DNA from: Gracilaria domingensis
Taxonomy: Eukaryota > Rhodophyta > Florideophyceae > Gracilariales > Gracilariaceae
Direction: 5' to 3'
Assembly (NCBI GenBank): GCA_022539475.1
Contig: VCMS01000069.1
Location: 124,001-188,000, forward strand
Length of the DNA stretch: 64,000 bases
In this document: positions 24,251 through 64,000 of the stretch, in pieces
Position numbering within the stretch: the stretch's first letter is position 1
Layout of the letters: every line of letters begins with the position of its first letter
Translations under genes and position numbers: made by a program
Notes under the pieces: generated by a model
The model's input: only the letters and a program-made list of their open reading frames with translations
Told to the model about the DNA's origin: nothing
The model's database searches: none

Positions 24251-24258
24251 TCTACACA

Positions 24259-33130: not shown

Positions 33131-33238
33131 TCGGGAGTCTCCGATGGAGAGGCGCCCAATGAAAGCCCCAAGGCGCGCGAGGCGCCTCCGCCTCGCTCCC
33201 CGGTCACAATCCTTTCAAAGAAACAGGCCAACCTAGAC

Positions 33239-39153: not shown

Positions 39154-39369
39154 AAATGGTTTCCCGACTTAGAACCGAGTCAGCTACAAGTTGTAAATTA
39201 GGTCTGATTGTTGACGGACTACCGTTTTCTGACAACGATCAGCACCCGCTTTGGAGTGTTGGAGTTTAGCAACGTTTGAACGTGAATCGTCGACTTGGCG
39301 GTTTACCCACAAGGTTGTTTAGTTTTTATAGTTCTTTGGAGACTCATGTACGAGTTTAACTGGACCATA

Positions 39370-41360
39370 TGGATTGGGTTGGTTACTGGTTTCCAGTATG
39401 CCGCCACCGACTCGTGGATCTCGAACCGGTTCTGCGCGGTCATCGGCTGCGGTACCACCTACTGCACCGGCACCCCGGTCTAACCCAGATGTGGCGCCAC
39501 CTCTTGAGGTCGTACCCAGTCCCCGGAGAGCGCGTTCAGTTACAGACGCACCCAGAGGAAGCGTGGGTTCAGCTCAATCTGTCGTTGAGATGCCATCCAC
39601 GTTTACTCCTAGAGTTGCTACCGTACTCGAGTTGGCTAGGTCAGAATCCCGCTTGGATATTAATCACGCTGCTCACGTGGAACTCCTACAGGACGTTACT
39701 ACGCTGAGGAGGCGTGTCGATGATGACCAAGTGAGGGATGTCTCAGGCGACTTACGTCTTCTGAGAAAGGACGTGAATTCTATTATGGAAATCTTTTGTC
39801 GATGAAATGCGTACGATATCGGTCGAATTCGTTTGCGTTTGGATACGCTTGAGGAAACAATGCGCATGGATGAAGCCGTGGATGCACCGGCTCCTCGGAG
39901 ATTCGGTCCGCATGGACCGCCGCAGTCATCTATATTCGGATTCGAGCTAGCTCAGAACGTGCGTGATGAAACAGTTCGTCAAGCTCATCGAGATGACAAC
40001 CGTCACCGGTCTCGTTCGACAAGGTCGAAAGTGACGCAGTCTACTCAGTAGTGATGCGTTCACGCTTGAAGGACGGCGTCACTTGGACTCAGGACTTAAG
40101 CCCACGGACCACTTTACACGAAGCTGTTGTCGTACGTTATTATCGGTGGAGGATGTCACTTCGAAACGCTCCCCGGAACCGGTAAGGTCAAGGATTACAT
40201 TCGCAAGATGAATGCCACACCCGAAACGAGGAAGTTCTCTGGAGAGGATCCTATCCTTATTCTGGATTTCTTGCTAGGTTCGTGCAGGAGACCGATGTAA
40301 TCGGTATGACTGAAGCACAGCATACGTAGCACTGCTATTCCTGTCAGGATCGGAAAGATCAGTACATCTGTTCGAGCGACCTCGAGGGCCTCGGAGGAGC
40401 AGTCACGTGTCCGCCCGAAGCCGTGAATTACCTTCTCAGGTCATACGCGACTTTCAACGAGATTCACAGTGCAACCCTTGCTGTACGCAACACTAGACAG
40501 AAGAATGGAGAAACCGAAACGGTTTATTCAACGCTTTTGAACAAAGCGGTTCACGGATCTGGTAATATGTATTCCACACAGGAGCGGTGTACCATATTTG
40601 CTGATGGTTCGACCCCGCCATTCGATCGTTGGTCGCTCGCCAGCGCGAGGAAAAACGCCGAATAAGGTACCTAGAGTTAGTTAATTACGCCCAGGCGGAA
40701 GGAGAGACGTATCGGGCACGGCACCCGAGGCAGCGCCATTCGAGAGCCCTACTCGAGGAGAGTTTTTCACCGTCCGTATCGGTTTTGAAAGCAGGAACCG
40801 GTGGGGGCGACGCTGATAACGTTCACTTCATTGGATGTAATCCCGATTCTTACGGGTCTACGGACCTGCCGTCAACTTCGATTCTGAGTGCGGAAAAAGA
40901 CCCTGCATTGTAGGCAAAAGGTGCCCTGGTGCCTGCAGCCCCGCTGCCGTACGCTAACAATTCGTCGCGTCTGAACAGTCCAGGTTGGAAAGACACTACG
41001 CCACAACGTCGGGTGGACACTTTTCCCCGCGACAAACCGGCCTCGGTCATATGCTACCAGTGCTACCTTCCAGGTCACGTATCGAAGCAGTGCGTATTTC
41101 CGCCGTCGCACAGGCCGAAAATTATTGCGTATTACGAAGCCCTCACGCCCGAGGAGAAGGAATCTGTTCCACGAAAGGAATATGATCGGGCCAGAGCAGA
41201 GCTAGGATTATCGGTTGCGGTCTACGCCCAACCCGCTGCTTCGGCGCAGATACCTTTGAACCAGGTCCAAGGTAACGTACCCGCGCAAGAGGTTCAGTTA
41301 GACCCCCATAATGGAGTTCATACACCGAACGCGGTGAACCCCGTTCCGAAAACCTGACTT
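39370..41360 (+). mobile_element. Element B gag-like region
   Basis: It contains blocks shared with element A (NYLLRSYATFNEIHSATLAV) and a clear CCHC zinc knuckle, ICYQCYLPGHVSKQC. Part of a fossil element. Confidence 0.75.
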
Positions 41361-41409
41361 CGGGAGTTTCCCCCACGGGAGGGGCGCCTTCTGAGCCGAA
41401 GTTGAGCCG

Positions 41410-44400: not shown

Positions 44401-45817
44401 CCCAGCACGATTTCCTTTGGAGTTTATCGGCATCGATATCTTAGGCGAATTGATCCAGACCGCTAAAGGTAACCGATACCTTTTCGTGATTACCCATAGG
44501 TTCTCTCAGTTGCTACGGACAGTCCCGTTGAAACGAATTACGGCCACCGTGGTTGCACAAGCCTTTCTCGCCCACTGGGTCTTTGTGTACGGTCCACCGC
44601 TTCATCTATTATCAGATAACGGTTCACAGTTCACGTCGAAGATTTTCCAGTACGTCTGTCGGATCTTGAGTGCCAAGAATCTATTTACGACCACCTACCA
44701 TCCCCAAACAAATTGTCAGGTAGAACGATTCAACCGTACAATGCTAAATGAATTAAGATCTTATGTAGCAGATCATCCTAAGGACTGGGATTTGTATACG
44801 GACGCGATCACGTACGCGTACAACACCCAAGTCCACCGGGTAACGAAGTTAGCACCTTTTGAGTTGGTATTGTCAAGAGTACCGCCACCAGTTGCAATCG
44901 AAGCTCAAGAAAAGCTTTCAACATACCCGTCCGTTGGATTATACAAGAACGCTTGGAAGGATTGGTTAACCAAGATAGTACCGATCGCTCGTACAGCGAT
45001 GGATAAGGCGCAGGCCGCTTATAAGCGTAACTTTGATGCTAAGGTTAAGACCCCATTACCGAAGGTCACACCAAACGATATGGTATTCCTCCAAAAGGAA
45101 TACTATAATCCGGAGAAGGAATGCCGCCAAAAGCTCTCGCCAATCGCGGAAGGACCTTCAAAGGTTGTTTCTGTTACGGACGATACCGTCGTATTGGATA
45201 TCAATAATCTCCACCAACGGATATCGTTAGACCATGCCACGTTGGCCCCACCGCCATTCGTTCAGGTTAACACCCAACCGGGTGAAGCTACAGAAGACAA
45301 ACAGGTCGCACCTTCGCCCCCTGCGACTTTGCGCCCTGATCGCGGTTTATCCGATTTGCCGGAATCGGAATCACCCCGGCGGGTAACGCAACCCGTTGCG
45401 GGAATTGAAGACGAACACTCAACTAGAGTTGACCACACACCTCACCTCGTGGCTCCCGTGCCACCGCCTGAGGAGGGAGAGGGAAGTATGAAAAGCGTTA
45501 CACCGGCGTCGCACGGTCACAATGTGTCGCAAAGTACCGCAACCAATCTCGCGGTCTCTGCCGCTAAAGTCTTGACGCGCCGAGGCGCTGTACCTCGTGG
45601 TAATACTCCGTTGAGTTCGCTGAGCAACGCTCTTGAAGCGGCAAGACCTGCTCAGGGAGTACACACCGCTGTGGATAACGTAACTCAGTCGGGAACACCC
45701 CAACCGAGCGAGGTCCACACCGGCGCAGCGGAAAAGAGAATATCTGTAGACCCGGGCCCTCCGAAGGACGCAGAACCGCAAGCGGCAGACCAGCTCAATG
45801 TTACCGACCGGTGTTAA
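41410..45817 (+). mobile_element. Element B pol region: protease, reverse transcriptase, RNase H, integrase
   Basis: The reverse transcriptase shows FCIDYRRLN and LGYLDDIIVLS, and RNase H shows FEVDTDASAHQVG. The integrase shows a zinc-binding end with RSCTECAKNN and a core with GIDILGEL, LLSDNGSQFTSKIF and YHPQTNCQVERFNRT. It is the fuller pol of the two elements. Part of a fossil element. Confidence 0.9.
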
Positions 45818-50029: not shown

Positions 50030-50450
50030 CAGATCGACCCTCGTCTGTCTCTTGCAGATGCTAGTTTTTGGCGAGGGTCGTCCAGTAAATTTTTTGAAAA
50101 AATATCGAGATCAATTTTTTCAAAATTTGAAGATAATTGCTTGGGTCGTCCAGAATCGCTGTGCAGTAAATACTGGTGGGTTTTCCACTCGTGCTAGTTC
50201 TTTAGTCGAGGGCTACCTGAACGGTATTTCGCGAAGTCTAGGTTCAGTTTCCATTAAGGTGCACATTACACGATACCTTCTGCGGAATGATACCCTGCAA
50301 CGCATTGAATACTGTTGCTAGTACAGATGATGTCCATTATGAAATCATACCGTTTTATTCGTATCTATTCTTCTATCGACCGCTTTTGCTAACTACTACT
50401 TCGCTATATTACATGTACCATTTCCCCATGATGAAGCGGGTGTAGGCGCA

Positions 50451-51136: not shown

Positions 51137-51796
51137 TAACCCAAAGCTTATTTCCTGCCGTGTACATGTCGCAGAGCGCGAAGAGACGGGGTGAGGATTG
51201 GTTAGTTTAGAACAAAGATACGTAGAAGGATATGGAAGCACGACGAAAAGACTGCACGGAAAGACTGCACGGAATACATCCGTGAGATACGGATGATGTC
51301 CGCTTTATGGAGGCGTCCATTAGGCGGACATGAAGCGTACCTCATTCTCTTCCCCGCACTCTACTTCGTAGCGAGTGTGAGGGCGGAGAAAGGTACGACG
51401 GAGCGCCGCTCGTGATCCGTGCCATCCACATCCTCGCGTTCCACTCCGGCGGAGTAGAACACGCGACGGTAACGGTAGGTCGGACGCCGGAGGCGCGGCG
51501 GCGGCGGCGGATGGAAGAGATTTATTTTTCTGTGCGAGACTAGACAGGTATACAGCGTACAACGTTGCGAAACCACAGGTTTATAACCAGTGGTAGATAA
51601 TACGAGAAGTACACCCTTGTGTTGCGGTCTACGTGTACCTACGTTCCTTTTTGAACGAAAGCACGTGATTTAAACTCAAAATATATTCTCCGTTCTCAGC
51701 ATGACGTCGATCTTGACTATCGCTCGACCTCCTTCTTCCTTCGGACGACCTTTCCTTGCAGTCTTTGTCGTCGTTTCTCGTTCATTTCTTCTTCCC

Positions 51797-54700
51797 ATGG
51801 TCTATTACTGTACACATAAGAAGCGTCGGTGCCCGTTCGTTACTCGCCGAGGAGTCTTATCTCTTCAACAGCATGTCAACCATTGCCCGTTTCGTCTGAA
51901 AGCAGCGTTGGAAGAAGACAATAGGCGGCCCATTCGGAGAAGCAAGCGTCTCAAGCTTTCCGCGCCCGCGCACGCATCTTCCGAAACGGTCACTGCCCCT
52001 TGTCGCCTTCCCGAGCCTCCGGTGTCCGAGGACATCGTCGACCCCACTCCGTGCGCCCCTCCCATTCCGGACACTTCGCATTGTGTTTCTCCTTCCCCGA
52101 GTCTCGCGTCATTAGAGCGAGAACACGGAAGCAGTTCCCGCCCAGTGCCTTCTGAGGAGGCCCTCAGTGATATGCATATGGATTATCTCACGGTTTGTAT
52201 GGCTTCAGTAGCTTCCAACCTTGGTCATCGTGAGGAAGACGAGCTAATTGGGCTACTTCGGGACCCGCGATTCTGGCAAAAGCGATTCAACGAGACCATA
52301 ACAAGTTCCAAGCGCTGTACAGAACTAAAGAACGCCATTTTCGAACGATAAGCCTCAAAGGATGGTTTCAATCGAAGAAATGTCTCGCCAGAAGGATGTA
52401 CGTGCAGCGCCACCCTCCACACGAGAGACCGCGTTCAGACACTTGTGAAACAGCTCCAGTTGGCTAACAACGAAAACACATTCTTCCACCCTATACCTCA
52501 GGCCCACTCCACGAAAATATCTCACCCCATTTCTGGCTCTCTTGCAAGAGACGCCACCTCAAAACTGAAAGAAATGGTCATGGGCTCTTTGGATAGTAGA
52601 ATAGTGTGGTACTCCCAAGAAATAAGTTACAGTGAATCTTTCGTAGGTCTTCTGCAGGTATACACCGATAAGTCTTCAACAACTCTAAAGCAAACATCGG
52701 TTACCGCCTATCCTCTTCACCTCATGTTTCTCAACTTCTCCGACGAGCTTCGCCGTAAGTGTATCCGTGATGACCTCACAGTAGTGGCATACTTCAATAC
52801 CACACTGATCGAGGTTTCCGCATCTGAAGCAGACGCAATGCCATTCGTTTCTAGCAAGTCTCTACGCGAGTCCAGGATGCAAATCTTTTAAGAATCTCTT
52901 CATCAAGTCCTGGAGCCCATTCTAAATCTCACGCAGAAAGGTTTTCAGTTCATCGGCGAAGACAAAATAAGTCGAGTGTGCCATCCTCTGCTTGCAAGTT
53001 ATTGTGCGGATATTCCTGAGGCTAAGGACATTCTGTTCATTCTTCATGGGACCAGAACGGAAAGCCAGTGTCATAGATGCAAAGCCCCTCGCTCAATAGA
53101 ACTGCATAAAATCTTTATGCAGTTCTATTCTCACCTCATTCAACGGACGTTCTCAAAAGCACACGGAAAGCATTCGAAAGACATACACAGCTATCTTGCA
53201 ACATGCACAAAAAGACGAGGCGGAAAGACGTCCACGTCGTGCGAGGGAGAGGAGATCTCAAGCGGATACTCTGATGCGTTCAAATTCCATATCTCTCATT
53301 CCTTCGTTCCTCGAAACTTTCGTAAGCCTTGGAATGATCCCGGGATTGTCTCCATACAGTCTGTTCTCATTCGAACCATTACAAAACTTGCATCTCGGCA
53401 TCTCGAAGCTGATAAAAACGGCCACAATCGGGAGACTGCAGTCAGACACCCTGTGCACCACAATAGGAACATCTGCATCGCGTTCATTTCGAACGATACG
53501 CACCCAACTTCTGAACCATGCAAACGCAATTCTAGCTGCCATAGAACGCGATTCTCTTGCCAAAGGTTTACATATCGATTTCTCCGCGCAGGAGAAAGGC
53601 AAATCTTTGAATGGTATCTTCACGAAAGACGGTCTCCGTGGAATGCTGGAGGCCAAAAACTACAAAGCACTTGACATGGTCTTCCCCTTCATAGGAGCAT
53701 TCTTTGAAATATGCTGTGAAGAACAGGACGTTGCCCCAATCACAACAGTTTTCTCTCAGTACTCGGACTTGCTTTCGACCTTATTCAGATACAATCGTGA
53801 CCCGTATTGCACTGAAAGCTCTCTCCCGTGTCTTAGTTCGGAGATTGAAGCCTTCAAGTGTTCCGCAACAAAAACTCTGGCGGATTTTCATCCCTCCAGA
53901 CTGGGAACTCTGAAGTTTCATCTTCTCGATCATCTCGTGGACGATACTCGCCATCTGGGAAGTATCAGGTACTACGACGCAGGCATATACGAACATGCAC
54001 ACCTGCTATTGAAGAGACACTACAGAAAGACGTTCAGAGGAACAAAAACGGCTGTGGAGGAGACTATTCGCTCTATTGAGCACGGACATGTTAGAAAGCA
54101 ATGGAATGGCAATACTCCTTACCATTGTAATCCAGGTTTACCAGGAACTTCCACACAGCTTCCTCGATTTGCAATGAGAGGGCGCTCTTTCACTTTACGA
54201 GCTCTTCAACATTGTGTTTCAAGTATATCCAGTTCAAAAACATGGACTGCTGTTAGAGAGATGTTCTCAAGTACGGACACAAGGTCCTTTCTTGACCAAA
54301 TTGGTGAACAGGCCCTTCCTCCTTTCCTCAGTCTCGTGAAAGAAACACTGGATGAGCACTCTATTACATACTTCCCAGAAAAGACAAGGATAACTCTGGT
54401 GAATTCGGCCCTCGTGAAAGGCGGTTTCGTTCCGACTCTTGAACACTTCGATTCGTCTACTAAGGCACTTAAGCTGGGACGACCCAAATACCCCATCATC
54501 CAACGAGTCTTCGCTTCTCCAGCATTTGGTCCCAGTAGAAAGCCAAAGTTTTCCACTGTATTGGTAAGCGAAGAAGATTCAGAGACTTTGGTTGCCCAGG
54601 TAGTCGCTCTGATTCGAATATCTCTCCATGATTCTGCACTTACCGCACCAGAGGTGGCATTCGTCCGGTATTTCGAGGTTTTACCCCCCGCAACAAACAT

Positions 54701-54992
54701 CGACCACATATTGAAATGCATATCTTTACGGTGGGCTACAAACGATGAAATGAACCACATTCTTCCGTTCCCTCGTCATTCCAAAGCGGAGACTATCGTA
54801 GAGTTAACTACTTGGTACGGGATGGTTCCGGCTTCTGCACTACAGGGAACTGTCCATGTTGTTCGATCAAACTACCCTGCTCCACCTTTTTGTCCTCCAC
54901 TTCAATGGTTTCAACACCGATTCTACATCAATCGATTCTACCATGATTCAGATGAAGGACCAACTGAGTACGTTGATCTTGTACAGCCTTAA
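51797..54992 (+). pseudogene. Plavaka-like (KDZ-related) DDE transposase, decayed
   Basis: The N-terminus has a zinc-finger-like motif (YYCTHKKRRCPFVTRRGV then LSLQQHVNHC) as in Plavaka transposases. The catalytic part shows VYTDKSSTTLKQTSVTAYPL then HLMFLNFSDELRRKC, which follows the Plavaka pattern 'DKT...YPVYLTIGNI...RRK'. Next are HPLLASYCADIPEAKD with a Cys pair CHRCKAP, then FEPLQNLHLGISKLIKTA and a long C-terminal domain (RYYDAGIYEHAHLLLKRHYR). One frame is interrupted by stops at 52349 and 52889, and a frame change occurs between about 53190 and 53260, after which 598 codons are open. Such transposases mobilise DNA transposons common in fungi and some algae. The assignment is from pattern memory, not a search. 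Confidence 0.6.
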
Positions 54993-56050
54993 ACATTAAG
55001 GGCTCCATCCTCTACATGTTCACCTTGTGGTGCCTTTTCTTGTGATCCTGTGTTACTTCCGAAATCGTTCATGTCCATTTCCTTGAACTCCATATCCCCT
55101 TCCTCGCATTCACCAACGAAGCAATCGCTAATAGACCCCAATCTTCGGCTCACACTGTCAATAAAAAATTGTTCTTTCACAGTGAGGTAAAGTCTTCCGT
55201 TCGACGGCATTCGATATCCAAATGTAGCCTCTCTCATGTCATTACCAAGAACCTTAGTCCAATCTTCCGTTGTCGTTCCAAAATTATGAAACTCGCTGGA
55301 ATTGGTCCTCAAGACACGTTGCCTAACATCCCCCAGAACATTCTTTAAACACAGAGGTAGCAGTTGGGCAAACTTCTTTGTAAACAGTTTCTGTCTCTGG
55401 CCACCCCTTGACACATCCGTACTTAGAAGGCTCACAACCGTCAATACCCAAGCGTCCAAACGTGCGAGCAACAGTATTGTGCCATCTAAAAAGGTGCCCG
55501 TATCCTTGTCTTCCACATCATACCCAATAAACTCCTTCAGTACTTGTACCCCGACACGGTTTCGGAAGAACAAGTCTTGATCTTCCGTCGGCATATCCTC
55601 GAAATTGTCCGCATTGGAGTACTTTAGACGAACAAAAGGGGCTTTTCTCCACCATGAAGTGTTCGGTACACCATTTTCGTCAAGACGCAGTATGTTCTCC
55701 TGCGCTTCCTTCAACTGCATTGTGAGTTCGTCAGCATTCTCTTGTACCAGCTTTGTTCTTCTCCAAATCAGATGGTACCCCAGGAGCATAAATAGTTTAT
55801 CCCTCGTATTTCTCTTCCGAACGCCCACGACGTCACTCATGGTCTGCCGCATTCTGTGCCTAAGGCACATATCTGCACAAAGTTCCAGTATACACCTGTC
55901 GGTAAGAGATGCTTTTCTAATACCCTCCCAGCTCAATTCCTTCAACTCGCTTTCAACCATTTTATTCAGCAAAGCATCTGGCATCCCCTCTACCGACGGT
56001 GTGAACATGCCAAAACTGCCCAAGAGCTCCACGGGGTTTTTAGGAACCAT
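54989..56050 (-). CDS. Unrecognised 353-residue protein convergent with the transposase
   Basis: The frame overlaps the end of the transposase by 4 bases tail to tail. The product is charged and helical (LVQENADELTMQLKEAQENI looks like a coiled coil) and has an acidic C-terminus. It contains no cysteine-based finger, membrane span or known domain. The upstream part on the same strand (to 57383) is in other frames and may be the same gene. Composition resembles the MTase and ParB genes rather than the GC-rich host genes, which supports one shared element. Confidence 0.5.
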   Translation of the reverse strand: MVPKNPVELLGSFGMFTPSVEGMPDALLNKMVESELKELSWEGIRKASLTDRCILELCADMCLRHRMRQTMSDVVGVRKRNTRDKLFMLLGYHLIWRRTKLVQENADELTMQLKEAQENILRLDENGVPNTSWWRKAPFVRLKYSNADNFEDMPTEDQDLFFRNRVGVQVLKEFIGYDVEDKDTGTFLDGTILLLARLDAWVLTVVSLLSTDVSRGGQRQKLFTKKFAQLLPLCLKNVLGDVRQRVLRTNSSEFHNFGTTTEDWTKVLGNDMREATFGYRMPSNGRLYLTVKEQFFIDSVSRRLGSISDCFVGECEEGDMEFKEMDMNDFGSNTGSQEKAPQGEHVEDGALNV

Positions 56051-57383
56051 GTATGAACCACCTTCCTCCGTCTCAATAAGCCCTTCCCACTCTCAGTTGC
56101 GTCTTCCACCTTCTCGGCACGGTTACCCCAATTTCGGGTGAGCGACTCACCTTCGAGCCATAGCTCACTTGTTTCTCTCCTTGCCCACGTCAGCATGTTG
56201 TGATACACTGCTCGAGCAACCCCTCGAAACTCGTCGCACACCTCAATTTTATGCTTCTTTCGACCTGTCTGCCCAGGTTCACCAGCACGTGTACTCCTAT
56301 CTCCCTCCTGTTTCAGTCCCCCCTTAGCCCTTCAATGACTAGATCCTTCTCTTCAAGCCTCTTTTTCAAAGCCGTACTCTGCTCTTGGACGACCTTCACT
56401 AGAATACCCCGAACCATCAAGTCCTATTGTAGCGTCTTAACCTTTTCTTTCAAGCAATTCAGTTCATTTAAAAGATCACGTCTGTTCATAAAGGTTGAAT
56501 TCACACCAGTGTGGATATCTTCCGGTATTTCCATAGCCTCTTCGGCGACAGTCCCCCGTAATGCCGCAGGATTCGGTGTTATTTCGTTATCGGAACTATC
56601 ATCATGTGCCATACCCTTAGACACGAGAGGCTGCAATCGTTCTGTGTCCACCCTTGGCACGGCTCCGAGCTCCAACTCCCGTGTCTGTCCTCCTCCATGG
56701 CATCGTATATCAGATGAATTGGGCCTCGCACGAGCTGCAACGGCCCCCGTTCTGGAAAGAGGGGAAGGTCAAGGAGTAACTCGTCTATCAGTTGTCTCTC
56801 GATTTCTTATTGTCTTTCTCCCTTGTCGGGACCCATTGCGAGGCATAATACGATTCATAGCGGCCCCAGTTCTAGAAGACAGGGAGGGACGTGACGATCT
56901 TAATATAATAGGGCTCTCACGACTTCTCGTCATTGTCCCTTGTTGTCCAGATCCACTGGGCTGCGTAACCCGCGCCCCAGTAGCTCCGGTCTTCGATATC
57001 GGCCGGGGACATGAAGGTTTTGGTGTCATACAAACCTATTCAGTTCCAGTTGTCATGCCCTCCTGTCCTGACCCGCCGGGCCGAGTTATCTCATCTTCTT
57101 GAGGAGCAGAGACAGATGCATGATTTGCATTATCGGCAGTTGACGGCACGACATCGTTCGCTGATCCACGAATTCTTGACGCAATCCCGGAAGACACTCC
57201 GCTGCGAGATGGGCGAGAGAGTACTGTAGAAGGACGCCCACTGACTCTCTCCTTCGTCGAGGACGACTTCCGTTTAGGAAGTGCGGTGCTTGTAGCCTGA
57301 TTCGTATCATCTGATGCTCTTCTCTTCTTCTGTCCACTCTTGTTCCGCTGCGTACTATTTCGCTTTCTCGGCGTTATACCCAT
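56051..57383 (-). pseudogene. 5' part of the unrecognised gene, interrupted
   Basis: From the ATG at 57383 a basic, low-complexity N-terminus is read (MGITPRKRNSTQRNKSGQKK, nuclear-localisation-like). It is followed in the same frame by pieces ending near 57036, 56769 and 56424, with in-frame stops between them. A last piece (56241-55990) is in another frame. The segment includes a degenerate tandem repeat. It could be a decayed exon or a gene with unseen introns. Confidence 0.4.
56735..57090 (-). repeat. Degenerate tandem repeat, about three units of 115-118 bp
   Basis: Units contain a recurring block encoded as GSGQQGTMTRSRESP, GSRQGRKTIRNRETT or GSGQEGMTTGTE on the minus strand. They have diverged strongly, so the period is approximate. 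Confidence 0.55.
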
Positions 57384-57630
57384 CTTGTGGAGATGAACGG
57401 GGTAATGAAACGAAATTGTTGCGGGGGGGAGGGAATGAGGGGGGGGTGCATGGTTCAGACATTCCGAGAGCCTCCGCAGTTCCTGCTTTTTAGGAATTTG
57501 AGGTGCCCAATGGGTCGCAAATATCGCCGTTACAAATAAATGAAGAGCTCCAGTGTACATGTACAACGCGTATTGCAGGCAGCTGCAACATTCACAAGCA
57601 TATTTACTTTCTATTCGGTACTGAACTCAT

Positions 57631-58206
57631 CTATTGCTCCAATGTCAGAGCCCAGTCCCAGGCGTACTGCTCTCCGTAGTTGAAATACAACTCTTCGCCC
57701 CTCTCAATATCTCTTACTGCTCTACAACGAAGTAGAGCATAGTTAGAAAGGTCTGGCTTGAACTGTATCACGGACTTCACTTCCACCACCTGCACATTGG
57801 CACTTCGAGTCCTGTTTGACCGGGGCTCCGATAAATCGGGATCCCCGGCATGATATCCGGCGTCGTTAATGTAGCCCCCGATACAAAAAGGCGCCGGGAC
57901 AATGTAGACTTCGCTCTCCTTTCTATCCTGAGCCTGTCCTGGTCTGTTCCTCAGGTGCAGAAACTCCGTACCAGTCACAGTGACCATCATAGAAAACAAC
58001 TTGTACCGCACTGGAGTTGCTCCGAGACAGCCACTTCCATACGTTAAGTGTCTTTCCTTCCGGTTCGTCAGATCCGTGTATACCAAAGTTCCATAGAAAT
58101 GACAGATAGTTTCCCCAGCCAATATCTTATGTTCCGTGAACACCCCCATACCAGCACGTTTCCCCAGCCAATATCTTATGTTCCGTGAACACCCCCATAC
58201 CAGCAC
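57631..58206 (-). CDS. SET-domain (protein lysine methyltransferase) segment
   Basis: After an artificial start created by the 49-bp duplication, the frame reads AGMGVFTEHKILAGETICHF, matching the N-terminal SET motif (G-x-G-V/L-F). It continues to FCIGGYINDAGYHAGDPD in the place of the N-H-S/C-x-x-P-N motif, and to RAVRDIERGEELYFNYGEQY, the canonical 'D-I-x-x-G-E-E-L-x-x-x-Y-G' end. SET domains use S-adenosylmethionine to methylate lysines, often on histones. The central motif is divergent. The upstream half of the first motif (IRHPCAGMGVFTEHK) is also present at the end of the neighbouring methyltransferase frame, so the two are best read as one fused gene. Confidence 0.75.
   Translation of the reverse strand: MLVWGCSRNIRYWLGKRAGMGVFTEHKILAGETICHFYGTLVYTDLTNRKERHLTYGSGCLGATPVRYKLFSMMVTVTGTEFLHLRNRPGQAQDRKESEVYIVPAPFCIGGYINDAGYHAGDPDLSEPRSNRTRSANVQVVEVKSVIQFKPDLSNYALLRCRAVRDIERGEELYFNYGEQYAWDWALTLEQ
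58109..58206. repeat. 49-bp perfect tandem duplication between the MTase and SET frames
   Basis: Copies 58109-58157 and 58158-58206 are identical (starting GTTTCCCCAGCCAATATCTT). As 49 is not a multiple of three, the second copy shifts the frame exactly at the MTase-SET junction. Confidence 0.97.
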
Positions 58207-60607
58207 AAGGATGTCGAATCTTAGAAGATGCTACATGTAAGCGATAGCGATTGGCTTCAACAGTCAACAGCATATGCATATCCATAAGATTCAGAGCTCC
58301 TCGGTACTTCTCGTCCCAAAGATCTACAGTATGCTGTCCACACTTGTCGACAAACTCCCAGTCCTTCCAGTATCTTCCTAGGAACTGAGTAATATGTGCA
58401 GGCATCACTTGGTACTGGGGGTATCCAAATGGAGCCTCCAATTCAAGCAGACCTCGGTCCCGATGTGGAACCCGTTCATAAGTCGTTGAAGCAGCATCCA
58501 CCACCTCCTGTTCAACCACGATGTCATTCTTCCTCCCGCGAAGAACTTCGGCCATAAGAGTCGTTATATGGTGCTTCGCATGGCTGAAACATGGCCTATT
58601 CTTCTCGCACCCCAAGAACTTCCTATGCTTTGTCAGCGATAGGCACGCCATACCCGTAGAAAAAGTTCCCGCGAACATGTCCATGACAAGATCACCCGGT
58701 CTTGTGAAGCGACATATCAACTCCTTCATCAACTCCCTCGACTTCTGCTCCGGTCTTATGTACTGCCCACCTGGTACTGAGCTACCTGGCTCATGTACCT
58801 TCCATGTCAACCACTCCCCCGCCCTCGGTTTGGGCACCCGGTCAATTACATTCCTGTTAGCCGGGAAAGTGGAAGGAATGAAATTGTTCTCCTCAAATGG
58901 AGTAAGACTGGCTTCCTCCGATGGTCGCAATCCACGCTTCACCCCATGAACGGCGTACTCCGTTACGGGCTGTATCCCAAACTTCCGTGGATTCCCTCCA
59001 ACATTACTGCGATCCCGGATGAACACCAGTGGATTCCCATCCACTTTAAACGAAGGCATGAGTTCTGGCTTACCTTCGCTTCCAGCTTCATCTTTCGTAC
59101 TCGCCGTTTCCGAAAGTATCCTGTGCCAAACATGAAACTGTGCCATGGCACAGAATATAATGAAGTGCCCACCTGACCGAAGCGCGGAACTTATTAAGTC
59201 AGCCGTACTGATCATGTCATCCTCACTGAAGACATCGTGAGCACCATTCCGTTTGCTTCTCTTCCTTCGAGTGTTGAAGGGAGGGTCTGTTAGGACAAGC
59301 TGTGCCTCACCCCATAAAATCTCACTCTGATTCACAAATGTTTCGTGTGTGTGCCTCAGGTCCTTCATGTCACAGTTGTACGCTACAAAGTGTGACTTTC
59401 TCATCCCCTTCCACACCTTGTCCATATTCATTGGAAGGAGAGTGGATATCCCCTTCATGGGCGGCTCAATACCAGTCTTTTGGATGTTGTACCTGGCAAC
59501 CCGAGATTCATGCTCCGCACGATTCACCGGCTTCTCGAAGTCGTCGCTATCGGAGCTCACGAGGTCCATATACTCTCGACGAGGTGGGGGTGGGGCAGAA
59601 TTGGTCGAAGAAGGTTCGGCAATACCGGAAGTTTTAGGAGTTCTCGTCAGTTCAATATCGGGTTTCGCGTGAATGCCCACATTGAACCCTGCCGCATGAC
59701 GCATATCCTGTATCGGTTTCCATAGAAACTCCGAAAAGTTCTGAAGTCGTGCAGGCAACTCACAGGAGTCAGAACCAGATACGGTATCCATCCGTATCCC
59801 CGAAAACTCTATCCAGTTCCTCATCTGATCAACCCGTAAGCTATAGAGGCTATCGTGGGTGCATATGGTTTCGAGGTCTGTCAAAAATTGCTTAGCCAGT
59901 ATTCGAAGGTTTGTATCGCATTTATCACTCAAGGTCCCCACCGATCTACTAGTACTGCTCTGTGGCACATCCTGTGTGTTGAATCGAGTAATCTGGCTCG
60001 GCGGAGCATAACCAGACTCCCGTGTCTCTAGCGCTGTATACTTCAACGTCTGCATATTCATGTAAATGTATGGTTTCACCATGTGCTGAACGTTCGTGTA
60101 TCCAAGATGAGCCGCAAAACAACTCCATGCCCATACGACCTCACTGATAGCGAATCCCAGTCGATCACAATTGTCTTTGGAGAACGACGTCGAAGTGGGT
60201 ATGTACACAGATGGTGCATGGTTCACTTTTCGTTTCTTTTTCGGTTGTTTCTTCTTCATCATTCGGATGTTGTCGTTCTCTCCCATTATGTGGCCGAGGT
60301 ATGATAAGTATATAACGACCTCAAATGGGTTCACAGCTGTTGGTGGGATGAACACTGTCGTCTTCAGAACCTGCTTTCTCCTGGTCATGAAATAACCAAC
60401 CAGGCATCGCACCGGTAGGTATATACCCATATCCATAGAGAGAAGGAAAAAATCGCGCAGTCTCTGGTCCTCATCCCCGTCCTTCTTGTCAAGAAGCTTC
60501 GTTACAAGATATCGTTGTTCCACAGGTTTGTTATTCACAACACTCTTTCGCAGTTGTTGCAGTGTCAAGTTCTGGAGGTTCTTGGAGTTAGTGGTCTCCT
60601 CAAACAT
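58127..60607 (-). CDS. DNA methyltransferase of the N6-adenine/N4-cytosine class, fused to SET before the duplication
   Basis: The 826-residue frame has catalytic motif IV as LVLTDPPFNT (DPPF at 441-444) and the SAM-binding motif I as LVMDMFAGTFSTGMACLSL (near 640-658), followed by FLGCEKN. Motif IV coming before motif I is the beta-class order, as in Pfam N6_N4_Mtase enzymes, and DPPF favours adenine. Residues 1-430 are a helical N-terminal region with a basic patch (MKKKQPKKKRKVN, possible nuclear localisation) and a PPPPRR segment; I recognise no domain there. Residues 790-815 run into the start of a SET domain. Bacterial and phage relatives often work with ParB-like proteins, and a ParB-like gene lies divergently upstream. 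Confidence 0.82.
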   Translation of the reverse strand: MFEETTNSKNLQNLTLQQLRKSVVNNKPVEQRYLVTKLLDKKDGDEDQRLRDFFLLSMDMGIYLPVRCLVGYFMTRRKQVLKTTVFIPPTAVNPFEVVIYLSYLGHIMGENDNIRMMKKKQPKKKRKVNHAPSVYIPTSTSFSKDNCDRLGFAISEVVWAWSCFAAHLGYTNVQHMVKPYIYMNMQTLKYTALETRESGYAPPSQITRFNTQDVPQSSTSRSVGTLSDKCDTNLRILAKQFLTDLETICTHDSLYSLRVDQMRNWIEFSGIRMDTVSGSDSCELPARLQNFSEFLWKPIQDMRHAAGFNVGIHAKPDIELTRTPKTSGIAEPSSTNSAPPPPRREYMDLVSSDSDDFEKPVNRAEHESRVARYNIQKTGIEPPMKGISTLLPMNMDKVWKGMRKSHFVAYNCDMKDLRHTHETFVNQSEILWGEAQLVLTDPPFNTRRKRSKRNGAHDVFSEDDMISTADLISSALRSGGHFIIFCAMAQFHVWHRILSETASTKDEAGSEGKPELMPSFKVDGNPLVFIRDRSNVGGNPRKFGIQPVTEYAVHGVKRGLRPSEEASLTPFEENNFIPSTFPANRNVIDRVPKPRAGEWLTWKVHEPGSSVPGGQYIRPEQKSRELMKELICRFTRPGDLVMDMFAGTFSTGMACLSLTKHRKFLGCEKNRPCFSHAKHHITTLMAEVLRGRKNDIVVEQEVVDAASTTYERVPHRDRGLLELEAPFGYPQYQVMPAHITQFLGRYWKDWEFVDKCGQHTVDLWDEKYRGALNLMDMHMLLTVEANRYRLHVASSKIRHPCAGMGVFTEHKILAGETCWYGGVHGT

Positions 60608-60816
60608 CTTTCTTGCCTCCGGAATATCTTATAGTTCTCGGCGCAGAACTCTATTAGCCCTCTAAACCCCACGTCCCGAGGCAGATCAGGGCCTCCATCG
60701 CTGTTTGCCAAAGCATCGCGAAGAACCAAGAAAAGTCTGAAATATGCATGGAACGCCGGAGGCGGAGCACTCATGTCGATAGGATGTATCCCCTCTCCAT
60801 CATCGGTGGAGTCCAT
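60565..60816 (-). CDS. Possible N-terminal part of the methyltransferase gene, other frame
   Basis: A frame of 83 codons starts at 60816 (MDSTDDGEGIHPIDMSAPPP), 15 bp inside the inverted-repeat promoter arm, and overlaps the methyltransferase frame by 43 bases. FHAYFRLFLVLRDALANSDG and FRGLIEFCAENYKIFRR look like normal protein. It may be the true start with a frame break near 60610-60640, or an upstream reading frame. The methyltransferase ATG at 60607 is the alternative start. Confidence 0.45.
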   Translation of the reverse strand: MDSTDDGEGIHPIDMSAPPPAFHAYFRLFLVLRDALANSDGGPDLPRDVGFRGLIEFCAENYKIFRRQERCLRRPLTPRTSRT

Positions 60817-60831
60817 CGCTTCAGCGCAAAC

Positions 60832-61015
60832 AACGGAGGCGAGCCTTTAAATGGCGACTTACGCTGGGCACCCCCGCTTTCGGCAGCTCCTCCCAGCGCA
60901 CTGCCAGTCTCGTCCGTGTCCGTGTCCGCTCCCTTCTGAGGTCGGTATCCGTGGGAGGAGCTGCCAAAAGCGGGGGTGCCCAGCGTAAGTCGCTATTTAA
61001 AGGCTCGCCTCCGTT
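60832..61015. promoter_or_regulatory. 64-bp inverted-repeat bidirectional promoter
   Basis: The arms 60832-60895 and 60952-61015 are reverse complements with only two mismatches, separated by 56 bp. Each arm holds TTTAAA (60846-60851 and 60996-61001, the latter within TATTTAAAGG) facing outward, toward the methyltransferase gene on one side and the ParB-like gene on the other. The ParB-like ATG lies 62 bp beyond its arm. The symmetry would give both genes the same control. Confidence 0.75.
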
Positions 61016-61077
61016 CTTGTATCGTCCAGAGCGAGCGTATTGTTGATATACACCTTTCACCGCAATAGCTGTTCAAC

Positions 61078-63567
61078 ATGAAGCCAACTCGTGTTCGAAA
61101 GCGTACGCAAAGCGTGACTCCTCGCACTCGGCGGAGCACTCGAACATTGCAAGGTGGAATGCGGGTTTCTCTGCAGATGGATATTGAGAATAAAAGAAAG
61201 GTGATAATCGGGGAAGCGTTGTTGCATGGAATTGGAAGTGTTCTACGCCGCGAGTTGAACGGGAAGCAATTAGACCCAGTTCATGTGGTGGTTAATAATA
61301 TTCTCATCAGTCGAAGCGGTCAGACGTTCTACCCTTACCGGGCGGAGGGCCTGGATCTTCCACAATACATCCAGGATCTCCGGACGGCCGCTCCTTGCGA
61401 TGAGAAAATGATGGAACCGGTGGCAGCCAGCATTCCGGCGTCGAAGCGAGGAACGGTGAGCGCTATGAGAGAGGGGATGACGCCGACAAGCCGCACGGAG
61501 CCAATTCGAAGTTCATCAAAACCCAGAAGTAGCGCATCAGGAGCACCTCCATGGGCCGGTCCATCGTCTTTTACGAAGCAGACTAAGGAGACGAGATCAT
61601 CCCGAGCTACAAAGCGGACAGATCAAACAAAGTCTACCTCCGCTACGAAGCCCACTGCGTCGAAAAGGGCTTCTCCTGCGATGAATCAGACCGTCGACAC
61701 AAGGGGATCTTCTGCGTCGAAACAGACGGTTCAGCAGGGGACGGCTGTGCAAGAGGAGGAAGATGAGATCATGAAAGGTCCCCTTACCGACGCGGATGCG
61801 CAATCCGCGCAAGGTGCTGGTCCATCTGTACCCCAACTTGCACCAGAAACTGCGGAGCAGCAGGACGATGACGTTGTGCTTCTGTCCGCAAGAATGGCAC
61901 GTTCAAGTGTTTCTGGCGAGCGATCTGGAACACAAGGGACACCTACTCGGAGCAAGACGTACAGACGAATTCGTCAGAAGGTACCAAAGGTGAACCTCAA
62001 TCACTACCGGATGGTTGTTGTTACTGTTGACATCACTCTGGTGGACACTCCGCCGAATTTACTCCGTGGAGTAAGTAAACGCCACGTTGAAGCCCTTGTG
62101 AAGAGTATGGAGGAGCGGGGGATATTGCAGTCGATGGGTTCTCCAGTGGTGGCCTTACAAGATGCTACTACGGGAGAGAGGGATACTGACAAGGGACGCC
62201 TAACGAAGAAGTGCTTCATTGTAGATGGTTTGCATCGTCTGAAAGCTATACAATATTTGACAGCGACTGGTGCACCGAAGTGGAAGCAATTAGCCAAGTT
62301 TTGGCGTTGCAATCTGCTGATACGAAGAGATGGGAGGCCCCTTGGGATGAAGGAATTGTTATGTGTTGCTTCGTACGTCAATGAGTCGACGAGTACCATG
62401 CGAGGGATGATGTTTGCAGACAAGATACACTCTATAGTTAGTGTGGTCGCCATTCTAATTGTAGATGTTGAGGGGGTGACGCCGGCAGACGTGGATCCTG
62501 CAGAAGTGACAGAAGTGTTGAAGGAGAGCCAACTGATTGGGACTGTGCAAGAGCGTCAGTATCTGAGATATGCCAATGTTGCCCTGCAACTCATGTCTCG
62601 TGAGGGAATGCTGGCCCATTTCGAGGATATATGTGAGAGTGTGAGTGACATAGGTCTCACACATCTGTCCCATACTCCGCTAAATGTTTTGGATGCCGAG
62701 AAGTTTTCCTTCATTCTTGATTGTCTTCAGATGTTTCTATTGAAGGGCAAGTCGACGAAGACAAAACAATGGAAAAGCTTTAAGGAGGTTCGAGGTTTCT
62801 TTTATGATAGAGCAGTGTCTCTGTTCCGCGCGGCTAGAGCAGTGAGGAATGAACTGAACGAGGAAGAGTCGATGGAAGTGTTCCTGAAGCGTGAAGTCAG
62901 TCTTTCTGCTCCATCGAATGAAGATGACGTTGAAGACCCAGACAACAACGCAGCTGTGAATAAGTTCCTTTTGGGACAAGTTGTGAACTTCAAAACATTG
63001 CCGCGTGTTCGGAGCAGAATGAACTCAATTAGAACTGCCACGACTTCCGTTCAGAATCGATTGCGGACGATGCTCAAGGTAATTCCGCCCCCCTCACCAG
63101 TGAAGCAGTCCGTGACGAAGAGGAGGACTCCCGTTGCTGCTGCTGCAACAACTGCCAGTGAAGAAGGGGAGCCGCGAAGAAGTGCACGAGAACGGGCGCA
63201 GGTGAGTTATAGGGAAATTGAGCACGGCCGAAATCGAGGTGCCATAGAAGTTCTGGATAGCTCTGAAGAAGAACAGCGAGCTCCGCCGAGGAGGAAACGG
63301 AGAAAGACTTTGACACAACAGATGAGATCTACTCTGAACAACATGACACAGGATGACCTGATGTCTCAACTAAATGAACATGTGCTGAGAGGAAGGTCGA
63401 TGAAGGTTCAGTCCATGGCATTGGAAGAGGGAGCGAATGCAGATAACGCAGGCAGTTCTGCATTTGTGGATGGCGAAGAGCTTCTTGCTGTGACAGTTCC
63501 ACGGGTTTTCACCGTCGAGAAAGATGCTGCTCCAGACGATCAGCAAAAGACAGGGGGGGTCATTTGA
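61078..63567 (+). CDS. ParB/Srx-like domain protein, large
   Basis: The 829-residue frame begins with a basic region (MKPTRVRKRTQSVTPRTRRS). A small conserved-looking domain follows (residues 35-100, VIIGEALLHGIGSVLRRELN), then a Ser/Thr/Lys-rich linker. At about 312-470 lies a ParB-like domain with VSKRHVEALVKSMEERGIL and the hallmark IVDGLHRLKAIQYL (D-G-x-H-R). ParB-fold proteins bind DNA or act as nucleotide-dependent clamps or nucleases. The C-terminal 250 residues are helical with basic, NLS-like patches (RAPPRRKRRKTLTQQM). The frame ends just after a run of seven G, and another frame carries on the protein, so the true product is probably longer. Confidence 0.72.
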   Translation: MKPTRVRKRTQSVTPRTRRSTRTLQGGMRVSLQMDIENKRKVIIGEALLHGIGSVLRRELNGKQLDPVHVVVNNILISRSGQTFYPYRAEGLDLPQYIQDLRTAAPCDEKMMEPVAASIPASKRGTVSAMREGMTPTSRTEPIRSSSKPRSSASGAPPWAGPSSFTKQTKETRSSRATKRTDQTKSTSATKPTASKRASPAMNQTVDTRGSSASKQTVQQGTAVQEEEDEIMKGPLTDADAQSAQGAGPSVPQLAPETAEQQDDDVVLLSARMARSSVSGERSGTQGTPTRSKTYRRIRQKVPKVNLNHYRMVVVTVDITLVDTPPNLLRGVSKRHVEALVKSMEERGILQSMGSPVVALQDATTGERDTDKGRLTKKCFIVDGLHRLKAIQYLTATGAPKWKQLAKFWRCNLLIRRDGRPLGMKELLCVASYVNESTSTMRGMMFADKIHSIVSVVAILIVDVEGVTPADVDPAEVTEVLKESQLIGTVQERQYLRYANVALQLMSREGMLAHFEDICESVSDIGLTHLSHTPLNVLDAEKFSFILDCLQMFLLKGKSTKTKQWKSFKEVRGFFYDRAVSLFRAARAVRNELNEEESMEVFLKREVSLSAPSNEDDVEDPDNNAAVNKFLLGQVVNFKTLPRVRSRMNSIRTATTSVQNRLRTMLKVIPPPSPVKQSVTKRRTPVAAAATTASEEGEPRRSARERAQVSYREIEHGRNRGAIEVLDSSEEEQRAPPRRKRRKTLTQQMRSTLNNMTQDDLMSQLNEHVLRGRSMKVQSMALEEGANADNAGSSAFVDGEELLAVTVPRVFTVEKDAAPDDQQKTGGVI

Positions 63568-64000
63568 TGACGAGTTACCTACAGCTCTTCCGGAATCTGA
63601 GGAGCACGGACTTGTTCGAGGAGACCCATATGATGGCCCACCGTACCCATCATGGTCCGGGTATGTCAGGCTGAGACCGCAGGAATGGCAAGGGAAGAAC
63701 GTAATTGAGCACAAGGACCCCTGGCTCAGAGTCATTCACTTGCCGAAGGGACATAGGTCGGAGCTGCTAAGTGTCTCGAATCTCAGAGATGTACAGCATC
63801 TTGTCTTTTGGCACGCTGCAAGGGCTGAACATCGCCTACGGGTGGAGACATTTGGTATGCAGTATCCTCGTACTCGACCGACAGGTATGGATGATGAAGA
63901 GGTGCTGTGGGTTGCTGCGAAGGAGCATGACGAATTTGGGCAAATGTTCTTCGCCCGAATGCAAGCTGAGCTAAGGCAGAATGGATATTGCGTGCTTGAT
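63560..64000 (+). CDS. Probable continuation of the ParB-like protein past a G7 run, cut by window end
   Basis: After the seven-G run (63553-63559) a different frame is open to the last base. It encodes SFDDELPTALPESEEHGLV, then HKDPWLRVIHLPKGHR, and ends AELRQNGYCVLD. One G fewer would join it to the 829-residue frame. The final L-x-x-x-G-Y-x-V-L-D pattern often opens 2-oxoglutarate/Fe(II) dioxygenase domains, but the deciding residues lie outside the window. Homopolymer miscalling is the simplest reason for the shift. Confidence 0.55.

Follow-up and report, generated by a model that had tools for sequence, protein, structure and literature searches.

A DNA methyltransferase-SET fusion and a divergent ParB-like protein carried by a Plavaka-type transposon in the red alga Gracilaria domingensis

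In the red alga Gracilaria domingensis (source assembly of 77.9 Mb), a gene for a prokaryote-type amino-methyltransferase (MTase) fused to a SET domain lies divergently to a gene for a large ParB-like protein, and it is practically certain that this pair is the cargo of a repeated DNA transposon and does not stand alone. From left to right, the element comprises a Plavaka-type transposase, the divergent pair with a palindromic region between its genes, and metabolic genes. The pair may act as an accessory system, which would set the chromatin state of the element's own copies. The first-pass annotation of the window (the whole 64,000-nucleotide stretch of DNA analysed here) had described one compact divergent module; its domains and their divergence stood, but it missed that the genes are transposon cargo, that the copy in the window is decayed, and that the ParB-like protein has an extra C-terminal domain. 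The element combines DNA- and histone-writing domains in one transposon-borne protein, apparent constraint and hundreds of family ends in one genome, and it poses a testable question, whether eukaryotic selfish elements bring along modification systems of prokaryotic type with which they set their own chromatin. It also advises caution, as a gene of this kind that is annotated by itself in a seaweed genome may be the cargo of a transposon.

The transposon, its ends and its copies

The left edge of the element is sharp: 37 listed copy rows begin at positions 331-343 of the query, 36 falling within 338-343 (50037-50042 of the window), and among the rows listed only that of the window itself starts earlier. 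The 35-mer beginning at 50042 has 425 exact occurrences in the genome and the right end has 501, with none for the reversed-pattern control in either case. On the right, the edge comes from two other copies, which diverge at the same base directly after ACACAGACG and whose termini, in the inward direction, are CGTCTGTGTTCTGCA. The terminal inverted repeats are short (CGTCTGT...TGCA), the ends of the element being CGTCTGT..ACAGACG. Full copies are about 22-23 kb long. Ends were paired for the contigs as far as C60, which have 77 left and 99 right ends, and 32 of the 42 paired-end copies were shorter than 18 kb. A further copy is inserted at X 71455, within the right part of the first one; a tandem head-to-tail array was rejected, because the 40 scored rows contain no second instance of this junction and it lies inside the right part of the first copy. 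A right border at X 69728 was likewise dropped, since other copies continue past it to a terminus.

Table 1. Features of the element in the window
Feature	Position	Strand	Basis
Left terminus, terminal inverted repeat CGTCTGTCTCTTGCA	50042..50056	+	shared start of copies
Plavaka-type transposase gene, frame broken in window copy	51674..54992	+	PF18759
Element ORF without assigned function, broken in window copy	54989..57626	-	open frames in other copies
SET domain, C-terminal part of MTase-SET	57631..58206	-	PF00856 5.2e-9, above curated cut-off
Perfect 49-bp tandem duplication (58109-58157/58158-58206)	58109..58206	.	sequence repeat comparison
Beta-class N6/N4 amino-methyltransferase	58127..60607	-	PF01555 N6_N4_Mtase 5e-15, above curated cut-off
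N-terminal piece of MTase-SET, other frame, starts MDSTD	60565..60816	-	residues 1-63 of intact 1045-aa protein align
Central inverted repeat separating the genes	60829..61018	.	arms 60829-60895 / 60952-61018
ParB-like protein, first 829 codons	61078..63567	+	PHROGs ParB-like families
ParB-like protein continuation, other frame	63494..64000, past window to X 64990	+	frame comparison with intact copies

The broken transposase gene of the window matches the Plavaka family PF18759 in 52352-53195 with stop codons read as X (9e-17, 61.7 bits; cut-off 26.3), and the next copy, which has an open frame from X 73478, matches it at 3e-19 (69.9 bits; cut-off 26.3). This transposase domain and the terminal inverted repeats at ends common to many copies agree with the Plavaka type (CMCT clade). 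The termini correspond neither to fungal PlavakaA (TGT..ACA) nor to PlavakaB (CATCA..TGATG), as given in PMC12730594, and we have therefore kept the name at "Plavaka-type transposase" and assign it to no lineage. The adjoining ORF without assigned function has no Pfam match in 54989-56050, and the copies C262 and C171 keep its frame open, over lengths of 822 and 832 codons. The metabolic genes encode a ribulose-phosphate 3-epimerase (2.5e-40) and a HAD hydrolase (7e-6).

Host chromatin regulation commonly employs SET domains and DNA methyltransferases, and one could take the pair for functional genes of the host with dispersed duplicates; the exact common ends with terminal inverted repeats and the transposase make this very improbable. 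The length of about 22 kb and the prokaryote-type enzymes would also suit a virophage-like element or a large DNA virus that has become endogenous, yet the Plavaka transposase and the short terminal repeats leave this reading just as little credit, and neither a Pfam match to capsid, packaging or polymerase proteins in the element ORFs scanned nor a relative of MTase-SET or of the ParB-like protein in viral_contigs has been found.

The MTase-SET protein

All three ORFs of the first-pass annotation are present (Table 1), and its assignment of two of them to a beta-class DNA methyltransferase with DPPF and FAGT motifs and to a SET domain has been confirmed by profile matches. In intact copies the two domains form one protein of 1045 aa in the same frame, with DPPF at residue 511 and MFAGT at residue 714, and they are its only Pfam matches above cut-off (SET, PF00856, 1.7e-7). 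In the window copy they are split because of the 49-bp tandem duplication, and another frame break lies near the 5' end of the MTase gene. The window MTase comprises an N-terminal region of about 430 aa without assigned function, followed by DPPF (residues 441-444) and, further along the chain, FAGT, so that motif IV precedes motif I (FxGT) in the permuted order of the beta class; DPPF is present in all nine locus stretches that cover its position. The nearest relatives of known structure are DpnA (7e-8) and CcrM (1e-6), with only about 65-70 residues aligned. The MTase domain is matched by 92 records of the phage collection, and among the 12 matches listed four are annotated as adenine-specific, while the remaining eight have annotations such as DNA methylase or modification methylase, a "chromosome partitioning protein" and a hypothetical protein occurring once each. 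At the site of the usual Asn-His motif the SET domain has GGYINDAGY, and a relative from another source, P0003, has GGFINDARY. The structure predicted for the MTase ORF with P0003 has a mean pLDDT of 29.8.

The fusion itself has been found more than once. P0003 is also an MTase-SET fusion, 41% identical over 97% and with the same domain order, and a second group of such fusions, with three frames of 1169-1170 codons, occurs in the same genome. The comparison behind this second group used 129 of the 150 rows of one search (21 short partial rows were dropped) and all 150 rows of the other, the best 150 candidates being scored in both, so that further neighbours may exist. A profile search with the alignment A1 returned no sequences.

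Copies were compared over gap-free stretches spanning 98% or more of a domain; this choice favours intact copies, and seven of those used for MTase-SET were the ones with the best scores. The resulting dN/dS values were 0.30 for the MTase domain (13 copies), 0.39 for SET (12 copies), 0.48 for the C-terminal oxygenase-like domain of the ParB-like protein (13 copies), 0.64 for the ParB domain (30 copies; a weak signal, which becomes 0.68 when each distinct sequence enters only once), and 0.91 (28 copies) and 0.94 (30 copies) for two low-complexity parts of the ParB-like protein. In a smaller sample, MTase and SET gave 0.16 (7 copies), and the ParB domain, with 25 copies, gave 0.55. The MTase and SET domains are apparently under purifying selection, and very likely the enzymes are under selection as enzymes. 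If instead the genes were captured passengers with no role for the element, their constraint would be left from before capture. The presence of metabolic genes in the same element, the stops in many listed copies and the prevalence of paired copies below 18 kb point in that direction, but values of 0.30-0.48 for the MTase, SET and oxygenase-like domains against 0.91-0.94 for the low-complexity parts, as well as the recurrence of the fusion in P0003 and in the second group, argue against it, and we consider such passenger status unlikely.

The ParB-like protein and the region between the genes

The intact ParB-like protein has 1305 aa, and its ParB domain extends approximately over residues 295-520, with DGLHR at 383-387. 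The ParB-like assignment of the first-pass annotation gains some support from phage profiles and none from Pfam: in a PHROGs scan of 13 domain copies with E up to 0.1, the ParB-like family phrog_3264 was found in all 13 (best 7e-5, window copy 0.0005), as was phrog_1033, and phrog_4715 in 12, whereas there is no Pfam match below E 0.26. Searches of PDB sequences with the ParB region gave 0, 0 and 5 matches, the five being unrelated and including no ParB, and the phage collection gave none for the ParB domain at E 10. The ParB protein of a Leptospira phage can be aligned to the window domain weakly (hhalign E 0.022, 20 columns). The structure predicted for the ParB region, from the window and two returned proteins, is unusable (mean pLDDT 32).

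The same Leptospira phage protein resembles, with hhalign E 5e-6 and 43% identity over 49 aa, the N-terminus of P0004, a distant relative from another source. A ParB-like part forms the N-terminus and a SET domain the C-terminus of this one protein, which has an MTase-like region besides. In the MTase-like region of P0004, DPPF is absent from the alignment and no Pfam MTase match is found, nor can the ParB-like part of P0004 be aligned to the ParB domain of the window (hhalign E 0.5). We had entertained the possibility that P0004 has the same ParB, and replaced it by the term "ParB-like N-terminus" because direct BLAST with the intact ParB-like protein found nothing. From the domain combination of P0004, a functional link between MTase-SET and the ParB-like protein gains support.

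A frame break ends the ParB ORF of the window, and the C-terminal domain of the protein lies mostly outside the window. Its motifs HTD, SAGSH, GDVTHAG and LVRYH were chosen by eye and then located, and the resulting HxD..H..R pattern suggests a resemblance to 2-oxoglutarate oxygenases; the pattern having been recognized by eye only, the name "oxygenase-like" is a lead and not an assignment. None of five copies of the domain matches any Pfam family at E 10, there is no oxygenase among its eight PDB matches at E 10, and no meaningful match was found in the phage collection. Membership in the TET/JBP family was rejected owing to the absence of a profile match, and the domain likewise matches no other profile of the 2OG-Fe(II) oxygenases, such as AlkB or PhyH.

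The symmetry that had been noticed between the two genes corresponds to an inverted repeat with arms of 67 nt (96%) and a spacer of 56 nt. In all five other copies compared, the central region is longer: its arms measure 97-100 nt (93.8-97%) and palindromic repeats lie inside it, and by this comparison the repeat in the window appears as a shortened form of a longer, partly palindromic region. In the window copy, the start codon of the MTase side has a TTTAAA at a distance of 29 nt, and that of the ParB side a TATTTA at a distance of 78 nt. With the best candidates scored, the MTase ORF has at least 57 matches in the genome and the ParB ORF at least 55. Among 55 listed places of each (for the MTase 55 of 57 rows, two secondary pieces being left out), genes at a distance below 4 kb form a divergent pair in 17 cases, and no pair in the same orientation was found within 6 kb, hence the compact divergent module described at first does recur elsewhere. 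Part of the MTase-SET gene is present at 19 of 30 ParB loci, flanks of 1.5 kb included.

Published systems and the possible role of the pair

The first-pass annotation had presented the pair as a eukaryotic ParB-MTase system joined to SET. The joining was substantiated by the intact copies, but a claim to the first eukaryotic version is unsupported, because a ParB-MTase accessory protein of a giant algal transposon in Ectocarpus is already in print (PMC12477816, which cites Iyer et al. 2011 and Petroll et al. 2025). Both are giant algal DNA transposons that combine a ParB-like domain with a prokaryote-type amino-methyltransferase, and binding and marking of the element's own DNA has been proposed for the Ectocarpus protein, as it is here. 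On the other hand, the latter is a single protein of 1104 aa in a Sola-1 element (PMC12477816), while in the Plavaka-type element of Gracilaria the ParB-like protein and the MTase are encoded by two divergent genes, for which reason we do not class the pair with the Ectocarpus type; besides, the Gracilaria MTase is fused to SET and the ParB-like protein has an additional oxygenase-like domain. In phages and plasmids, ParB-methylase and polyvalent proteins of conflict systems partner ParB/Srx with adenine methylase, the ParB domain having nicking/NTPase activity (PMC5512222); these systems are prokaryotic and, in the portions of that source used here, SET is not mentioned, unlike in the Gracilaria protein.

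Plavaka and other DNA transposons of fungi carry TET/JBP dioxygenases (PMC12730594), which is a similar association of a Plavaka transposase with an enzyme editing epigenetic marks; in the Gracilaria element there is no TET/JBP match, and the enzymes recognized are writers of DNA and histone marks, not an eraser. The same source mentions SET genes in the HarbingerS and MuDR transposons of Phytophthora, which are likewise DNA transposons bearing SET, whereas in Gracilaria SET is additionally fused to a DNA methyltransferase. The N4CMT enzyme of rotifers, with SETDB1, is another case of a bacterial beta-class amino-methyltransferase in a eukaryote that is tied to histone methylation (PMC8885841). 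However, N4CMT is a host gene product with SPPY and a chromodomain, SETDB1 being separate, while the Gracilaria protein is transposon-borne, with DPPF in place of SPPY, a direct SET fusion and no chromodomain above the Pfam cut-off. Relative to these systems the SET fusion, the divergent two-gene layout, the Plavaka vehicle and the metabolic cargo are apparently new.

With an MTase-SET fusion encoded opposite a ParB-like protein, the element may mark its own DNA and chromatin. The palindromic centre is a candidate binding array for the ParB-like protein, which on the DNA of the element would serve as an NTP-dependent loader or as a nicking factor. MTase-SET would methylate the element DNA, probably at N6-adenine, as suggested by DPPF and by the nearest relatives, and the histones of the same nucleosomes, and the oxygenase-like tail of the ParB-like protein may take off a methyl mark. 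Self-directed marking of this kind is an idea that we hold tentatively, with somewhat less than even confidence. That the complete self-targeted epigenetic system exists, with a ParB-like clamp on the palindromic centre, one writer of DNA and histone methylation, and an oxygenase eraser borne by the clamp, is doubtful.

The likeliest result of such marking would be escape from host silencing, or element ends marked for the transposase, although an anti-silencing direction in preference to self-silencing is by itself somewhat unlikely. Self-silencing, in which the element would put repressive marks on itself and limit damage to the host, as proposed for rotifer N4CMT and SETDB1, is suggested by the analogy between an MTase and a histone-type SET in one protein and the rotifer pairing of DNA and histone writing (PMC8885841); we judge it less likely still, as hundreds of element ends speak for successful spread and the oxygenase-like domain of the partner, if real, fits erasing better. 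Should the complete self-targeted system exist, it would represent a transposon-borne counterpart of a partition/modification system, by which the hundreds of copies in this red alga would be labelled as a single class of chromatin. The copies are many, and adenine modification is directly readable by long-read sequencing.

Transposon carrying the divergent gene pair

The first-pass annotation had described DNA methyltransferase (MTase), SET and ParB-like ORFs as a divergent pair around one symmetric promoter and had proposed that they act as a unit. All three ORFs are present in the window (Table), as is the inverted repeat between the two genes, taken for the symmetric promoter (67 nt, 96%, with a 56-nt spacer). 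The domains and their divergent arrangement thus stand, and the interpretation proved partly right: the pair is borne by a transposon. Among solved structures, the nearest relatives of the MTase are DpnA (7e-8) and CcrM (1e-6), both adenine-specific and aligned over ~65-70 residues, and the phage record with the lowest listed E-value (9e-9) carries the annotation adenine-specific methyltransferase; together with the DPPF motif, these relatives point to N6-adenine as the predicted target. The ParB ORF has no match in Pfam or among PDB sequences; in all 13 copies scanned, its putative ParB domain is similar to ParB-like families of PHROGs (best E-value 7e-5), and the DGLHR motif of this domain is preserved in 26 of 30 locus stretches.

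A search of the assembly (77.9 Mb, 680 contigs) returned, among the best candidates scored, at least 57 matches of the MTase ORF (77-100% identity) and at least 55 of the ParB ORF (86-100%). The left edge of the repeated unit is sharp, at about window position 50,042: among the matches listed, 37 start at query positions 331-343 (36 of them at 338-343), and only the window's own match starts before 331. On the right, the copies on contigs C342 and C137 are alike up to ...TTTGCAGAACACAGACG and then diverge. Reading inward from the two ends gives CGTCTGTCTCTTGCA and CGTCTGTGTTCTGCA. The genome contains 425 exact matches of the left 35-mer and 501 of the right 20-mer; neither reversed control occurs at all. 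Directly inside the left end lies a Plavaka transposase (PF18759), detected with 9e-17 in the window, where stops were read as X, and with 3e-19 in the next copy of the element. That next copy, beginning at 71,455 in window numbering continued along the contig, is inserted into the right part of the first. The MTase-SET / ParB-like pair sits on this transposon.

Nearest left and right ends in the same orientation were paired on contigs up to C60, where 77 left and 99 right ends yielded 42 pairs. Their lengths fall into classes of 9.2-11.7 kb (16 pairs), 12.4-15.4 kb (15 pairs) and 19.0-24.3 kb (10 pairs), with a single pair at 6.4 kb; from these length classes, full copies measure ~22-23 kb and most of the 42 pairs are shorter. 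Multiplying the mean of 14.3 kb by 425-501 ends, with solo ends and nesting ignored, gives a rough estimate of ~6-7 Mb, or ~8-9% of the assembly, for the family. Close to the copy on contig C171 lies an 811-codon ORF with a stretch ~70% identical to the transposase region, which may be part of another, similar family of elements.

Genes of the transposon in left-to-right order, compiled from several copies, and other features of the window and the genome (assembly contigs C, fetched locus stretches L)
Feature	Coordinates	Strand	Evidence or remark
Gene 1, Plavaka transposase		+	leftmost of the element
Gene 2, ORF of 822-832 codons		-	
Gene 3, MTase-SET		-	followed by the central region
MTase ORF (gene 3)	window 58127-60607	-	Pfam N6_N4_Mtase 5e-15, above curated cut-off
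SET ORF (gene 3)	window 57631-58206	-	Pfam SET 5e-9, above curated cut-off
Gene 4, ParB-like protein with C-terminal domain		+	
ParB-like ORF (gene 4)	window 61078-63567	+	ParB-like PHROGs families; domain ~residues 295-520
Genes 5-6, two ORFs			minus-strand ORF: HAD hydrolase, Hydrolase_3 7e-6; plus-strand ORF resembles it, by eye only
Next gene, putative ketopantoate-reductase-type dehydrogenase		-	by eye; no match in Pfam or NCBIfam
Next gene, ribulose-phosphate 3-epimerase	L042:5237-5740		PF00834 2.5e-40
Last gene, coiled-coil-like ORF			by eye; close to the right end
Best epimerase match in the genome	C320:26901-27497		6.8e-85; 297-codon frame
Type 3 MTase, examples	C12:74729-75424; C157:118531-119217; C266:90487-91182		
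811-codon ORF	C171r 13265-15697	reverse	
Inverted repeats bracketing ORFs	window 20965-27855		177 nt, 94%; weak MULE transposase match, PF10551 0.0015
Gypsy-like retroelement ORFs	window 29718-45817		reverse transcriptase and integrase, by eye
High-GC stretch	window 14001-18000		GC 75-78% over 4 kb
Plastid DXS-like gene	window 11975-14194	-	by eye
Glycosyltransferase-like ORFs	window 1-1260; 4722-5600		DGDG-synthase-like, by eye

Integrity, linkage and apparent constraint of the two genes

The window copy of the element shows decay in several places: MTase and SET are separated by a perfect 49-bp tandem duplication, residues 1-63 of the MTase-SET protein lie in a different frame, a frame change near residue 827 interrupts the ParB protein and the transposase is spread over several frames. 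In other copies, MTase and SET share a single reading frame that stays open for 1045 residues from its ATG (e.g. locus stretch L003), and the ParB-like protein reaches 1305 residues (L025, L028). The pairing recurs across the genome, as a comparison of 55 listed places of the MTase (of at least 57) with 55 of ParB revealed 17 divergent neighbours, 0.47-2.4 kb apart between matches, and no same-orientation neighbours within 6 kb. When 30 ParB loci were extended by flanks of 1.5 kb, 19 of them showed part of the MTase-SET gene; at the other 11 the flank was too short or the gene was missing. The 0.47-kb gap is that of the window, as against 1.0-2.4 kb in the other 16 pairs, and all five other copies compared have longer central arms (97-100 nt, 93.8-97% alike) with palindromic repeats in between; the central region of the window copy is therefore a shortened form. 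The palindromic centre may serve as a candidate ParB-binding array.

Pairwise dN/dS between element copies (Nei-Gojobori) was 0.30 for the MTase domain (13 copies), 0.39 for SET (12 copies) and 0.47 for the MTase N-terminal region (13 copies). In the ParB protein it was 0.64 for the ParB domain and 0.37 for the stretch that follows it (30 copies each), 0.48 for the oxygenase-like C-terminal domain (13 copies, five with stops), and 0.91 (28 copies) and 0.94 (30 copies) for two low-complexity parts; the values for the HAD ORF (1.01, 2 copies) and for ORF2 (0.67, 3 copies) come from too few copies to weigh. Since neutral decay after insertion raises dN/dS, a value far below 1 points to constraint during the active life of the element. 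By this measure MTase and SET show a good signal of constraint and the ParB domain a weak one.

Among the best-scoring matches listed for each domain in the translated genome, 59 of 94 matches of MTase type 1 are followed on their own strand by a SET match no more than 1.5 kb downstream, at exactly 388 bases in 31 of the 59 and at 385-391 in 52. All three listed matches of type 2 (a single contig, frames of 1169-1170 codons) have a SET neighbour, compared with one of 32 for type 3. From these counts, the genome holds a second MTase-SET subfamily and a further MTase family mostly without a listed SET neighbour. The 31 type 3 matches without one, with frames up to 1121 codons, are possibly ParB-MTase fusions as in Ectocarpus. 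Eight SET matches among those listed are compact and stronger, and are probably the host's own genes.

Relatives of the proteins and comparison with known systems

Only two relatives of the ParB-like protein, one of them from Gracilaria domingensis, appeared among the best 7,991 candidates scored of 5.8 billion proteins. The public ParB-like transposon protein P0002 is annotated as 'cell-wall-anchored protein SasA (LPXTG motif)', a name that is evidently wrong. P0003 (1015 aa, from an ENA contig of 7,972 bases) is 41% identical to MTase-SET over 97% and retains the Pfam MTase and SET domains in the same order. P0004 (1278 aa, contig of 10,693 bases) shows 24% identity over 43% in comparison with the MTase-SET protein; it has a C-terminal SET domain (1.9e-6) and an MTase-like region with neither DPPF nor a Pfam match, and its N-terminus resembles a phage protein of Leptospira whose annotation reads 'ParB N-terminal domain-containing' (hhalign E 5e-6, tblastn E 0.2; 43% over 49 aa). 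As a single polypeptide with ParB-like, MTase-like and SET regions, P0004 supports a putative working link among the three. Two results count against it: the ParB-like part of P0004 is not alignable with that of the window (hhalign E 0.5, a value that lies among those of 30 shuffles), and the window's ParB domain aligns only weakly with the Leptospira protein (E 0.022, 20 columns).

The C-terminal domain of the ParB protein carries, by eye, HTD (HxD) at 1119, followed by SAGSH, a distal His (THAG) and an Arg (LVRYH). HxD, a distal His and an Arg form the motif pattern of double-stranded beta-helix 2-oxoglutarate oxygenases. None of five copies of the domain matches any Pfam family at E 10, and searches of PDB, NCBIfam, PHROGs and phage records returned nothing meaningful; going by the motif pattern, we regard a 2-oxoglutarate oxygenase, assigned to no family, as a rather probable identity.

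The pair would represent accessory epigenetic enzymes of a giant transposon, of the same kind as those carried by giant algal transposons. The 21.5-kb Sola1-1_Ec32 transposon of Ectocarpus encodes a 1104-aa protein with ParB-like and N4/N6 methyltransferase domains (PMC12477816), whereas here the DNA writer is fused to a histone-type writer, the ParB-like partner is encoded by a divergent gene and the vehicle is a Plavaka-type element with metabolic cargo. TET/JBP dioxygenases are carried by fungal Plavaka and other transposons, and SET genes are present in the HarbingerS and MuDR elements of Phytophthora (PMC12730594). Rotifer N4CMT with SETDB1 illustrates how a eukaryote can link a captured amino-methyltransferase with histone methylation (PMC8885841), and DNA nicking has been reported for a bacterial ParB-methylase (PMC5512222). 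In passages of two papers, on red-algal sex chromosomes (PMC12502185) and on eukaryotic 6mA (PMC12695648), the element does not figure, and the titles and abstracts listed in searches of open-licence PMC papers describe no amino-methyltransferase-SET fusion in a transposon.

Metabolic cargo and other features of the window

The epimerase family has at least 151 genome matches among the candidates scored, many at element positions and many being 3'-end fragments; the best match, on contig C320, is likely the host gene. Elsewhere in the window, the 6.9-kb region bracketed by inverted repeats is probably a separate MULE-type transposon. The retroelement region contains several direct repeats (89-98%) with spacings of 7.6 kb and 10.9 kb. 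The high-GC stretch, compared with roughly 50% for most of the window, adjoins the DXS-like gene, and the two glycosyltransferase-like ORFs are related to each other, possibly by local duplication.
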